64,000 nt of DNA from Candidatus Poribacteria bacterium (GTDB lineage: Bacteria > Poribacteria > WGA-4E > WGA-3G), in NCBI GenBank assembly GCA_028820845.1, contig JAPPII010000092.1:1-64000 (forward strand). The letters are read 5' to 3'. Shown here piece by piece: positions 58,961-63,952 of the stretch (position 1 is the stretch's first letter; every line of letters starts with the position of its first letter). The notes beneath the pieces are model-generated. The model did no database searches and was not told the DNA's origin. It was given only the letters and a program-made list of their open reading frames with translations. Made by a program: the position numbers and the translations under genes.

Positions 58961-61689
58961 CAGTTTTTCCCTGGTGTGTTTATTTGTAAATTACCTGCGG
59001 CAGCTGCCGGTTCACGTCCAAATACGACGTGTCCATTGTGTATCAGTGCCGTCTCGGTAGTTTCTGGGTGGGTCGTATCAATTTTCCAAAGTTGCCCGTT
59101 GTTTTCGTAGATAATCCACCGTCCATCCGGTGGCACCCAGGCTGGATGCGAGCCGCCCCTTCGAGTCAACTGCTTTTCTGTCGGGACACCTTCACTTGAA
59201 TAGGTGACGAGCCAAACCTGTTGGTAATCGCCGACCTTTCGTGTGAACGCCAGTTGATTCGGATTCGCGGGCGACCATGTCGGTTCTATATCGTCTGTGT
59301 CTGGCGATATTACAATCGGCTCGACGCTCTGTGCGATTTGATCGAAGGCGTAGATGTTTCGTCTCTGTTGCCCATCCACAGGAATCGCTGCCTCCGGATT
59401 TTCGATGCTCCCTGCAGTAACATAAGTTAGCATCGTGCCGTCGCTATTCCAGGCAGGTGTGAAACTTTGCAGTGCTGTTGACGGCACAGTGAGCTCGGAG
59501 CCACTCGGAATATGCAGTATAACGACGCGACTTCGATCTCCGAACTCCGGACGTGTATAAGCAACGTATTGTGCATCGGGCGAGATCGCGACATCGTCCG
59601 CCATTTTTCGTCTATCGAAAAGCAGACCACCATCCGGCATTTCACGGTTCCGAATAATAACGTTCCCGTCCCTATCCTGATAAATGAGTGTCCCATCATT
59701 TGCAACAGTTGGATTGTCTCCAATACCTAATGGTGTACTGTTCCCATCAGGCGAGATCCCCCAAATCATGCCGTCGTAAGCGAAATAGATAAACAAAAGA
59801 TTGGAAGACTGGATGGTTGGAAGATTGAGACCTGCCTCCCTTTTTCCATCCTTCCCTCCGTCTTCCTTTTCAATCAGGATGCCCGCTTTGGGGGTAAAAC
59901 GTCCTGTATCACCCAGTTCCCACCCGGCCCCGTTTGCTTTCCAGACAAAACTGATCCCTTTTGTCCAGTAGTTCCATTCTTCGTTTAAACGTCCACCACG
60001 GGTGACACGAAAGATGTCTTCGGGTTCTCCATAACGTTTCCTAATTTCCCAGCGTCCACCGTCCTCAATTTCCGCCATATTTCCGTCTGCATCGATGTAA
60101 ATTGCGAGAACTGCAATGTCAATATGTGCTGTTGTTTCTCCAGGGAATACATGAACTGCTGTAGGTTCACCGCGGACGGGATGACGTGTGCCGTATATGC
60201 CAACGCCATCGGCGATACCGGTTTTCTGGTCGTTGTTTGCGTCCACGACTGCCATGACGTAATAGCTGCCCGGTAGCACATTGACTTGGTAACTGCCATC
60301 GCTTGAAACAGTAATCGGCATCGCAATCGGTGTACTGAAGTCAGGGGCGTAAGAGAGCGTCAGTATTCCCTGCTGGACAGTGTGTCCGTCCCATACGATA
60401 CGTCCGGCGATGCCGCCTTGTTCAATATGTGCTTCAATACTGGGTGGCGTGGCATGAAGCCGTCCATCGTCATCGTAGCGTGCACTTATCACGAGTTCAA
60501 TTTCTTGGGTTTCGCCTTCTACTAAGGTGAGTGCAGTTGGGGGCTGTGCCGTGATGTCTATTGTACCGTAGCCGCCTAAACCGTCCCCTTTACTATATCT
60601 ACCATTCTTATCCGCATCCAGATTAGCGATAACATAGTATTCATCCGGTGGGAGTGCTAAACGGAACGCACCCCCAGGCGCCGTTTCGCCACTGGCAACC
60701 GGAGCGACTAAGGCGGGGTCTGAATACACTTCAAGCCGTGCGGTTACATCCCCGGGCACCGGAGACACGATGCCTGTGAGCGTGCTGGTCGCTGCTTTTT
60801 GCGTCTTCTCACGAGTTTGATAGGTGGCAGTGATTGCGATTTCTATATTTTCAGTGAATTTGTTCACAGAAACCAAAACGGGCTGTGGGAAATTCCCACG
60901 TTTCCGCATATCCTCAACACCGTAGAAGCCAAAGTCGTCCCCTGTATCCAGTTTATTCGTCCTGTTGTTATCCACAATCGCCATCAGGTAGTATTTGCCC
61001 GGCGGTAGATTGAGCGTCCAGCTGCCAGCGTCTGTCACTCTGGCGATACCCGCACGATATTTCCACGATAAATCTGTATACGCAAGAATGAGTGCTTGTG
61101 AACCGGCTCGGAGCGATTTCGGATTTTCTGGTGCTTGGCGGACAAAACGCAGTGTCCCACTACACCCCGATGTCGCTTTGCGCAACTCCGTCTGGAATTG
61201 CTGGAGTTGGCTCGGTTCGTATTCGGATAGTGGAACGACCGTTGGTTTATTATCAATGTAGGTCGCTCGTGCGGTTATCGGGATCTCTAAACCCCGAATC
61301 TTTTCTCCGTCTTGGACTTCAATCTCCTGTTTGTTTTGATTCTCATTGCCCCAGTCGGTAATTCCGAACATACCCAAGCCATCACCTGTATCAAAGCTCC
61401 CAGATTTATCAACATCTACATAAGCAACGAGATAATAGCGTCCGGGTTCCACACGGAGTGTGAATTGTCCATCGCCGAGTTGCGGGATTCCACTAATATA
61501 AACCTGTTGGAGTGCTTCGTCCCGATAAACAGACACACTTGTATGCGACAAGTCTTGCCCTTTCCAGACGACTCTCCCTGCCAAGGTCGCCGTCATCCGT
61601 TTCGCCGTAGCGTCCTCCTGCGCTTGGCAGAAAGCCTCACCGGCAAATCCGATACTGATAACAAGTAGCAAAAGCGTCAAGCGTTTCAT
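58960..61689 (-). CDS. Secreted multi-repeat protein with PD40 propeller C-terminus
   Basis: 909 residues, signal peptide 1-23 (LLLLVISIGFAGEAFCQ). Four related domains of about 110 residues, each a beta-sandwich like a carboxypeptidase-regulatory or SdrD B-type domain, end with an acidic loop: DVDKSGSFDTGDGLGMFG, DNNRTNKLDTGDDFGFYG, DADKNGRYSKGDGLGGYG and DANNDQKTGIADGVGIYG. These loops look calcium-binding. The C-terminal ~300 residues are PD40 blades (PTWSPANPNQLAFTR). A purine-rich short-period repeat at 59801-59877 encodes a Gly/Lys/Glu-rich insert at about 604-629. GAAGGAACGG precedes the ATG. Confidence 0.75.
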   Translation of the reverse strand: MKRLTLLLLVISIGFAGEAFCQAQEDATAKRMTATLAGRVVWKGQDLSHTSVSVYRDEALQQVYISGIPQLGDGQFTLRVEPGRYYLVAYVDVDKSGSFDTGDGLGMFGITDWGNENQNKQEIEVQDGEKIRGLEIPITARATYIDNKPTVVPLSEYEPSQLQQFQTELRKATSGCSGTLRFVRQAPENPKSLRAGSQALILAYTDLSWKYRAGIARVTDAGSWTLNLPPGKYYLMAIVDNNRTNKLDTGDDFGFYGVEDMRKRGNFPQPVLVSVNKFTENIEIAITATYQTREKTQKAATSTLTGIVSPVPGDVTARLEVYSDPALVAPVASGETAPGGAFRLALPPDEYYVIANLDADKNGRYSKGDGLGGYGTIDITAQPPTALTLVEGETQEIELVISARYDDDGRLHATPPSIEAHIEQGGIAGRIVWDGHTVQQGILTLSYAPDFSTPIAMPITVSSDGSYQVNVLPGSYYVMAVVDANNDQKTGIADGVGIYGTRHPVRGEPTAVHVFPGETTAHIDIAVLAIYIDADGNMAEIEDGGRWEIRKRYGEPEDIFRVTRGGRLNEEWNYWTKGISFVWKANGAGWELGDTGRFTPKAGILIEKEDGGKDGKREAGLNLPTIQSSNLLFIYFAYDGMIWGISPDGNSTPLGIGDNPTVANDGTLIYQDRDGNVIIRNREMPDGGLLFDRRKMADDVAISPDAQYVAYTRPEFGDRSRVVILHIPSGSELTVPSTALQSFTPAWNSDGTMLTYVTAGSIENPEAAIPVDGQQRRNIYAFDQIAQSVEPIVISPDTDDIEPTWSPANPNQLAFTRKVGDYQQVWLVTYSSEGVPTEKQLTRRGGSHPAWVPPDGRWIIYENNGQLWKIDTTHPETTETALIHNGHVVFGREPAAAAGNLQINTPGKN
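59801..59877. repeat. Short-period purine/pyrimidine repeat inside a coding frame
   Basis: Begins with heptamer-like units (ggaagac, tggatgg, ttggaag) and ends with octamer-like ttccatcc, ttccctcc. Encodes EDGGKDGKREAG between the repeat domains and the propeller of the 909-residue protein. Confidence 0.6.
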
Positions 61690-61899
61690 TTCCGTTCCTT
61701 CATGCTGTTGTTTTGTTGTATTTGATCCTTAACAATATTAACACGTACCACGAATAATTTGCAAATAGAGATTCTCAGGGCAGATTCATTCAATTGTCCA
61801 CTTGTCTGAATGCATGTCGCATGAATCAGGATTTATAGGATTGAGGGACTGGTAGGATTGCTGTATAAATATGATGTTAACTTAACGGTATATTTTTTA

Positions 61900-61959
61900 G
61901 CAACACACGTTAAAAATGTTACACTAAATGTTACACCCGTGTAACATGTGATGTGTTGC
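61900..61959. promoter_or_regulatory. Cluster of TGTTACAC boxes within an inverted repeat
   Basis: Outer ends GCAACACA (61900-61907) and TGTGTTGC (61952-61959) are inverted. Inside lie TGTTACAC at 61917-61924 and 61929-61936, and its complement GTGTAACA at 61939-61946; another GTGTAACA is at 62052-62059. Likely binding sites for a regulator of the divergent genes (inference). Confidence 0.5.
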
Positions 61960-62256
61960 CTATGACGTTAGAGAACCCAGTCCCCGTAAGGGTTCGTTGA
62001 CGTTTAATTTCCGATTTTTTCTTGTGTGAAAAAAAACGAATTTGGCGAAAAGTGTAACATTTTGCAGGAGTGGGTTAATGGTGTTATTGACACATTCAGT
62101 CTTGAGAGATTCACGGCGTAGGTCCTCCTTTGAAGATAGAGATAATATATTATACTATATTTACTAACGGATGGCAAGTTAAAATGTGCTATAAACTCGG
62201 AGATAGGAATTGGCAGTAGTTTTAGTCTTTCTTTAATTTTAAACTTTACTATAAAT

Positions 62257-62286
62257 TTGACTTTCATCATTAATATATAGTATAAT
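62257..62286 (+). promoter_or_regulatory. Predicted sigma-70 promoter of the LamG-like gene
   Basis: TTGACT (62257-62262), 18-bp spacer, TATAAT (62281-62286). Transcription would start near 62293, giving an ~85-nt leader. Confidence 0.7.
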
Positions 62287-62293
62287 ATTTTTC

Positions 62294-62317
62294 ACATATC
62301 TACGCGCGTAGATATGT
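62294..62317. promoter_or_regulatory. Perfect 24-bp palindrome at the predicted transcription start
   Basis: ACATATCTACGC followed by its exact reverse complement, beginning about one base after the predicted start point. It can act as a repressor operator or as a hairpin at the 5' end of the transcript. Confidence 0.65.
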
Positions 62318-62378
62318 AATATGTTTTCCATTCTTGGAAAAATTTGCCCACAACACACGCTAATAGGAGACCTTAAGT

Positions 62379-63143
62379 ATGAAAATGAAAGGTTATTCCA
62401 TCTGTGCTGTTCTGCTGATGTTTTGTATGTCCCTGCCAGCAGTCGCACAGGATGCGCAAGCAGACAATCTACTCGGATGGTGGCTATTTGACAGTGAAAA
62501 GGACGAGATCGGTAACTGGAGCGATATAGACCTCCACGGTGCCGAACTCAAAGACGGGCAGCTAATTGTTGAGACAGGAAAATGGGCACACGCACTTGAA
62601 TACAGCGGCCCCGATATCGAAGAGAAGACTTTGATGACATGGGTCGCATTAGACAGTCTCGCCGCAACCAAAGGTTCGGCACTCACGTTAGATAAAGCCT
62701 CTGAAGACCAATTCAACGCCATCGTCTACGCCGAACGCCAACCGAATCAGTGGATGTCAGGCAGCAGTTGGTTCCACCGCACAGAGGACTTTCCAGACGC
62801 ACACAACGAAAAGAACGAAGGCGAAATGGTCTACTTAGCCTTCACTTATGAAGATAAGGGTGGGACTTACAAGATAACGGGTTACCGTAACGGTGAGAGC
62901 CTCGGTAGCTATGAAAAGGGTGAGATCAAAACCTGGCCCACAGATGATGCAGAAATTATCTGGGGTAAACGGCATACAAATGGGCTCGGCGGTCCCGGCG
63001 ATCTCAACGCACATATTGAGGAATCCCGTATTTACTCCGTTGCATTGACCGAAAATGAAGTTAACGAAATGGAAATCGGAACGCTTTCTGTTGATCCACA
63101 AGGCAAGCTCACAACGCGCTGGGCAAAACTTAAAGCGAAGTAG
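62379..63143 (+). CDS. Secreted LamG/concanavalin-like protein
   Basis: 254 residues, signal peptide 1-23 (AVLLMFCMSLPAVAQ). LLGWWLFDSEKDEIGNWSD followed by EYSGPDIEEKTLMTWVALDSL is the start of a LamG-type jelly roll; ESRIYSVALTENEVNEM is its final strand and helix. Such domains bind glycans or join larger adhesins. Ends with DPQGKLTTRWAKLKAK, a tail nearly shared with the next protein. Good ribosome binding site (AGGAGACC). Confidence 0.8.
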   Translation: MKMKGYSICAVLLMFCMSLPAVAQDAQADNLLGWWLFDSEKDEIGNWSDIDLHGAELKDGQLIVETGKWAHALEYSGPDIEEKTLMTWVALDSLAATKGSALTLDKASEDQFNAIVYAERQPNQWMSGSSWFHRTEDFPDAHNEKNEGEMVYLAFTYEDKGGTYKITGYRNGESLGSYEKGEIKTWPTDDAEIIWGKRHTNGLGGPGDLNAHIEESRIYSVALTENEVNEMEIGTLSVDPQGKLTTRWAKLKAK

Positions 63144-63153
63144 TTTTTGAAGC

Positions 63154-63184
63154 GTAGGGCAAGGTCCCCGGACCTTCGCCCTAC
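63154..63184. repeat. GTAGGGC hairpin after the LamG-like gene
   Basis: GTAGGGCAAGGTCC pairs with GGACCTTCGCCCTAC with one bulged base. No strong T tract, so the terminator role is uncertain; it resembles other GTAGG hairpins in the window. Confidence 0.65.
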
Positions 63185-63244: not shown

Positions 63245-63952
63245 ATGAAACGTCGAATAACCCTCTTTCTGATATATATTGGTATTGGTCTCGTTTCTGT
63301 TGCTGCCGCCGAGCAGCAAACGTGGACATTCGACGACAATGCCGCAGATTGGACCCCTGCAAACGGTACGTGGGAAGTAGAAGACGGGGTCTATAAACAG
63401 ACAACGCGCTATGGTGAGGCGCAAAAAACGTTAGCAAATGGGGCAGAATGGACAGACCACACCGTAAAAGCAAAAGTCCGTATTGAGGCAGGACACTGGG
63501 CAGGGATCGTCTTTCGCGCACAAAATGAATTTGAATACTACGTCTATCTCATCTGTCCGAAGGAGAATAAATCTGAGTTGTGGAGACACCGCCGCAGCAC
63601 CGCTTTTAAAGACGGATTTGAAGGACGCGACGAGATTGAACACGATATCGCACCTATCGGACTGACACTCACCCGAAACGAATGGTTTATGCTCAGTGCA
63701 ACCCTTGAAGGCAGCCGAATCGCACTCGCTATTAATGGCATAGAGCAAGCCGTATTTTTTGATGACACGTATCCGCGCGGTAGAGTCGGGGTCTGGACAT
63801 GGGATACGCAAGCCAGTTTTGATGATGTCAGTGTCAACGGTGTGACAACAACGTCTCTCACGGCGGTCGAACCTAACGGAAAACTCGCAACATCGTGGGC
63901 GACACTAAAGCGAATCGCGGACCGCAAACCGCAAACCGCGAATAGCAGATAG
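63245..63952 (+). CDS. Secreted DUF1080/LamG-like protein
   Basis: 235 residues from ATG 63245, which follows CAGGGGGTG; an in-frame ATG at 63191 would add 18 non-signal residues. Signal peptide about 1-22. WTFDDNAADWTPANGTWEVEDGVYKQ and GIVFRAQNEFEYYVYLI match the DUF1080/3-keto-disaccharide hydrolase-like jelly roll, which can be catalytic or carbohydrate-binding; only the lectin-like fold is certain. The tail EPNGKLATSWATLKR resembles that of the preceding protein. The last ~14 codons and stop come from a 7-bp repeat array. Confidence 0.78.
   Translation: MKRRITLFLIYIGIGLVSVAAAEQQTWTFDDNAADWTPANGTWEVEDGVYKQTTRYGEAQKTLANGAEWTDHTVKAKVRIEAGHWAGIVFRAQNEFEYYVYLICPKENKSELWRHRRSTAFKDGFEGRDEIEHDIAPIGLTLTRNEWFMLSATLEGSRIALAINGIEQAVFFDDTYPRGRVGVWTWDTQASFDDVSVNGVTTTSLTAVEPNGKLATSWATLKRIADRKPQTANSR

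Follow-up and report, generated by a model that had tools for sequence, protein, structure and literature searches.

Introduction

Stabilising stem-loops at the 5' end of bacterial mRNAs are exemplified by E. coli ompA and papA and by the B. subtilis aprE leader. Palindromes over a transcription start are also familiar as repressor operators, in the LacI/TetR-type arrangement. Some mRNAs are known to be stabilised by a 5' hairpin (reviewed in PMC3997798), and PMC8794818 describes template switching as a process by which perfect hairpins can be made or mended in a single event. Literature listings on Poribacteria yielded nothing related on laminin G, riboswitches or leader RNAs, operator palindromes or miniature inverted repeats, and the main text of the single-cell genome study PMC3909097, in the part available, is silent on LamG, laminin, lectin and promoter.

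Here, we analysed a window of 64 kb, meaning the whole stretch of DNA under study, from the genome of a Candidatus Poribacteria sponge symbiont, with a focus on a perfect palindrome at the predicted transcription start of a gene for a secreted laminin G-like (LamG) protein. Like the ompA, papA and aprE stem-loops, it would place a stem at or near the start of the transcript, ahead of the ribosome site of a gene for an exported protein; unlike them, it is a predicted element, its sequence is unrelated, and most of its orthologues are without a strong stem. With LacI/TetR-type operators it shares dyad symmetry across the start of a strong promoter.

Promoter and leader of the LamG gene

Gene 1 (62379-63143, plus strand) encodes a secreted protein of 254 aa with a Laminin_G_3, concanavalin A-like fold (PF13385, E 1.6e-9); its signal peptide was judged by eye. 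Matches to it were found in 59 of the 60 relatives searched, often many per genome, and its named relatives are Candidatus Poribacteria bins. Two orthologous loci, L003 (G035) and L005 (G025), carry two LamG genes in tandem, the second of which has its own diverged version of the promoter and leader (L064, L065).

The promoter is made up of a -35 box TTGACT (62257-62262, plus strand) and, after 18 nt, a -10 box TATAAT (62281-62286, plus strand), so that 11 of 12 positions across 62257-62286 match the consensus. In the orthologues the -35 region reads TTTGACTTT, or TTTGCTTTT in one subclade. We compared 34 upstream regions of same-genus orthologues, the window's genome counted, and found TATAAT at the same position in 33; the sole orthologue without it (G028, L061) still has the leader itself. 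This set does not include the upstream regions of G013, G015, G060 and G061, the orthologues of G023 and G013 lie on truncated contigs, and the upstream part of G023 was taken from another contig. G060, a further genome of the window's species, gave no match to the region. Furthermore, the orthologues align well from the -35 box to the start codon and poorly further upstream. By this comparison the predicted promoter is real, as the initial annotation had claimed, and the alignment shows a conserved promoter together with a leader conserved in place.

The predicted 85-nt leader contains a Shine-Dalgarno-like AGGAG (62365-62369, plus strand), of which GGAG is invariant in all 27 aligned leaders. 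RNA folding predicts a second leader hairpin, TTTTCCA-TTCT-TGGAAAA (62324-62341, plus strand), downstream of the palindrome, and some other leaders of the window's close relatives (clade A, below) have a different second hairpin of the GGGGC..GCCCC type.

The palindrome at the predicted start site

The palindrome, ACATATCTACGCGCGTAGATATGT (62294-62317, plus strand), consists of two perfect 12-nt arms and is centred on CGCG. Its first base lies 8 nt past the -10 box, which is the expected position of the predicted +1. The arrangement is as first described, a promoter pair followed by a perfect 24-bp palindrome. The RNA transcribed from it is predicted to begin with a stem of 10 bp closed by a GCGC loop.

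This is the longest perfect palindrome of the 64 kb window, the runner-up measuring 16 bp. Among 100 dinucleotide-preserving shuffles of the window a longest arm of 12 nt was reached once, and when the surrounding 122 nt (69% A+T) were shuffled 5000 times, a 12-nt arm likewise came up once. No arms of at least 9 nt were found among 158,836 other bases of the same genome. Thus, the palindrome is unusual here, yet the shuffle rate makes one such element in a genome of 5.7 Mb no surprise, and it is its placement at +1 that makes it notable. Other promoters of the form TTTGAC..TATAAT in the same genome (28 distinct ones read, out of 54 other matches) show no perfect arm longer than 7 nt within their first 45 nt.

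The RNA fold of 62291-62390 has a free energy of -20.6 kcal/mol (z -2.9), and 2 of 200 shuffles were as low. For the first 45 nt of the window's predicted transcript the values are -12.0 kcal/mol and z -4.0, indicating that the stem is more stable than expected by chance.

Conservation of the start-site stem

Long perfect arms at +1 occur in only two of the 34 orthologues, the window's genome, with 12-nt arms, and G012. The latter has TTTACCGACATGTGTCGGTAAA, with 10-nt arms around a 2-nt centre, a different sequence with the same pairing at the same place. Upstream of the orthologues the perfect palindrome is thus largely not conserved, an outcome that the initial annotation had listed among those counting against its reading. 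Folds of the first 45 nt follow the same pattern, with z -4.0 for G000 and -4.2 for G012, while z is mostly near -0.5 across the orthologues. In the more divergent homologues L045 and L046, a hairpin of unrelated sequence stands at the same place (z -2.8 and -2.3).

The window's closest relatives form clade A, in which six leaders were counted (G000, G035, G022, G025, G012 and G029). This clade keeps the inner stem, as CTAC-N4-GTAG or in a variant form, and some outer pairs are changed on both sides. G025 has no clear stem. Of 59 cells for the 10 stem pairs, 78% are paired, compared with 30-44% when slid, and two-sided changes are found at 3 of the 10 pairs. The observed values were reached by 16 to 33 of 500 column shuffles; six sequences are a small sample, and this control leans toward the stem because the structure was supplied by one of them. 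Over all 27 aligned leaders, 53% of the cells of the +1 stem are paired, compared with 23-50% when slid.

A seventh close relative, G023, was omitted from the clade A count. In its leader (L130, G023:C74), a stretch that includes the right arm of the hairpin is duplicated in tandem.

A 5'-terminal stem-loop as the preferred explanation

Taken at a probability of about 0.5, our preferred explanation is that the LamG gene mRNA opens with the palindrome as a 5'-terminal stem-loop, located in a fast-evolving leader and perhaps perfected by template switching. RNA polymerase would start 7-9 nt past the -10 box, and the transcript would open with the 10-bp stem and its GCGC loop. It would protect the transcript against 5'-dependent decay and head an 85-nt leader that is probably mostly open at the ribosome site. 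The leader itself evolves fast: CTAC-N4-GTAG persists in close relatives, with two-sided changes in some outer pairs, and distant ones keep the right arm together with its potential pairing with CTGCCCGC. Both the formation of the hairpin and its stabilising effect on the mRNA are inferred.

The sequence changes while the pairing stays, as seen in G012, L045 and L046, which favours an RNA stem over a protein site. Furthermore, the relatives keep the promoter and mostly not the palindrome, which makes an RNA start more likely than a shared repressor site. Of the two functions that the initial annotation had offered, a 5' stabilising hairpin would fit better than a repressor operator.

Possible alternatives: a product of mutation or a private operator

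The alternative that survives best, though we consider it rather unlikely, is that the palindrome arose by mutation and does little or nothing, an imperfect leader hairpin having become perfect in this lineage through template switching or drift. It accounts for long perfect arms confined to two genomes, and for a hairpin quality that varies freely between close relatives. The tandem duplication of G023 falls into the same stretch, and we take it as a sign that the start-site stretch is prone to rearrangement. As with the template-switch hairpins of PMC8794818, a short inverted repeat is perfect in one lineage and imperfect in its relatives; unlike those hairpins, it has no demonstrable footprint of a single event, and both arms, not one, depart from the relatives' consensus. 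The recurrence of two-sided pair changes and the retention of the inner stem in most of clade A further weigh against a purely mutational origin.

Only slightly less plausible, and still improbable, is a private repressor operator, in which a dimeric regulator would bind the 24-bp dyad over +1 and block initiation of the LamG gene. A perfect dyad does span the start of a near-consensus promoter, and several close relatives share its core, CTAC-N4-GTAG. However, the outer half-sites differ among these close relatives, and in the larger clade the right half alone is constant. A search of the genome (5.7 Mb) for further copies returned this site only, as neither the 24-mer nor its 18-nt core has a second site at up to 3 mismatches, a result that is not decisive for a private operator. 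With the core unique at this threshold, no regulon shows. A Pfam scan of four neighbouring genes revealed no known regulator. The palindrome is thus unlike LacI/TetR-type operators in being unique in its genome, unconserved in sequence and without a regulator in the scanned neighbours, and the initial description of a classic repressor operator is not borne out.

The leader in the larger clade

In the larger clade of orthologues, the right arm GCGGGTAG is nearly invariant and the left arm variable, and the right arm is able to pair with CTGCCCGC about 35 nt downstream. Over the 27 aligned leaders, this long-range helix is paired in 204 of 240 cells, compared with 32-45% when slid. Its covariation is not in excess, as 476 of 500 column shuffles reach the observed number of two-sided pairs, and in clade A alone just 26 of 54 cells are paired. 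Being well paired without excess covariation and missing in the window's clade, the long-range helix was rejected as the main structure.

Whole-leader folding is weak, with a mean z of -0.89 and a median of -0.83 over 34 leaders, two of which are tandem second copies. A leader with an insertion (L012) was part of the 22-row alignment and left out of the 27-row alignment, while the divergent L020, L021 and L024 are in neither. A search with the leader model R1, which was built from 22 leaders of the clade other than the window's, gave one match each in 25 of 38 genus genomes, 22 of the 25 being the model's own members. None of the 38 genomes contained a second leader copy by this model, and 13 of them, including that of the window, gave no match; on the window's own leader, R1 scored 16.5 bits, which is below an 18.0-bit chance match in the same window. 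No Rfam family matched in the window at gathering score, and the interval 61680-62400 gave a chance-level match only (mir-287, E 0.15, 20.1 of 80 bits).

These data allow for two further explanations, both improbable. The first, a long shot, is that the leader acts as a lineage-specific cis-regulatory RNA whose fold was remodelled during evolution: one clade would pair both conserved arms with each other over about 35 nt, the window's clade would close each of them into a local hairpin, and one regulatory task would be carried out by two folds in sister lineages. Even less probable is a conditional leader of the attenuator or riboswitch type, in which the right arm would pair either with the left arm or with the downstream site nearer the ribosome site. 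The frequent GCGGGTAG-CTGCCCGC pairing in the larger clade speaks for such a switch, as does the fact that the +1 hairpin and the downstream pairing are mutually exclusive. The covariation at shuffle level, the missing long helix in the window's clade, the weak folding of the leaders and the lack of an Rfam family at gathering score all speak against it. Finally, a very early intrinsic terminator can practically be dismissed: a consensus scan flagged 62294-62317 as terminator-like, but only 3 G-C pairs were counted, the TTTT run starts at 62324, six bases past the stem rather than directly behind it (tail AATATGTTTT), the element would sit inside the transcript's first 25 nt, and the scan yields 5 such sites against a shuffle mean of 4.7.

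The downstream gene

Gene 2 (63245-63952, plus strand) encodes a secreted protein resembling 3-keto-disaccharide hydrolases (PF06439) and has its own Shine-Dalgarno sequence. Just 3' of the gene 1 stop codon, folding places a strong hairpin, GTAGGGCAAGGTCC..GGACCTTCGCCCTAC (63154-63184, plus strand), that is terminator-like with a weak T run. By pattern, a hairpin of this type (TAGGGCRAGG..CCTYGCCCTA) follows gene 1 in 24 of 30 orthologues, which makes control of gene 2 by the LamG promoter doubtful.

Gene neighbourhoods were compared in a set of 25 loci, from which two in Verrucomicrobia were set aside to leave 23 Poribacteria loci (L034-L056). With the paralogue L044 and three distant loci (L053, L055 and L056) excluded, 19 were counted, and among these gene 2 lies near gene 1 in 14 neighbourhoods (L034-L043, L045, L046, L051 and L054) and was not found by tblastn at 1e-10 in 5. 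Over all 23 loci, the same search did not find gene 2 at L044, L047-L050, L052, L053, L055 and L056; the sequence of L049 ends about 1.1 kb past gene 1. The promoter had initially been said to control a pair of lectin-fold genes. Both folds stand (PF13385 and PF06439), whereas joint control is uncertain because of the hairpin behind gene 1 and the neighbourhoods in which gene 2 was not found; shared control of genes 1 and 2 is possible. Glycan-responsive control, which the initial annotation had raised as a possibility, gains no support from the analysis.

Both proteins share a C-terminal motif similar to VEPQGKLATxWAxLK (63090-63143 and 63860-63952 in the window). Besides the Laminin_G_3 and 3-keto-disaccharide hydrolase types, the motif is found in a third family of about 340 aa, present at L034, L035, L039, L041-L043 and L054. 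It looks like a sorting or attachment tag.

A dispersed promoter-bearing repeat

Separate from the palindrome, a dispersed repeat that bears a promoter (61823-62194, minus strand) lies between the divergent genes, upstream of the LamG promoter. The query 61735-62240 matched 25 places in its own genome, itself counted, and gave matches in 35 of 38 genomes of the genus; most of them fall inside 61823-62194. In relatives the repeat is missing from this intergenic stretch, which, as cut for comparison, measures 235-472 nt there and 692 nt here. An upstream motif, AAACTTTACTATAAA, resembled the end of a repeat and was dropped because it has two exact copies in the genome. Furthermore, the repeat had no match in the phage collection searched for a phage origin, and no Rfam match at gathering score.

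The aligned copies of the repeat share the promoter TTGACA-N17-TATAAT, with TTGCCA in the window's own copy (minus strand, 62177-62149). The promoter is followed in the aligned copies by a block with AAAATGTTACAC and GTGTAACATTTTT, in which every position is pairable in at least 12 of 13 copies and two-sided changes are absent. A model of this block, R2, gave 43 matches in its own genome, including the 12 own-genome members of the model, and matched 35 of 38 genomes. The next called gene runs in the direction of the repeat promoter, 19-440 nt downstream, in the window and at 14 of 15 other own-genome copies, of which L175 and L176 are near-identical duplicates. Just past the promoter, the repeat of the window also contains a putative 36-aa reading frame (minus strand, 62114-62004) with a GTG start behind AAAGGAGG. 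The repeat may be a mobile or repeated module of promoter and leader (or attenuator).

Implications

The comparison of orthologues supports a promoter and a leader in front of a gene from an uncultured sponge symbiont whose product is a conserved, secreted protein with a lectin fold. It also shows that the hairpin at the start site turns over fast while the promoter stays put. The dispersed repeat upstream is more interesting than the palindrome itself. If its copies drive the adjacent genes, many genes of Poribacteria would be under one repeated control module, which may matter more than the start-site hairpin.
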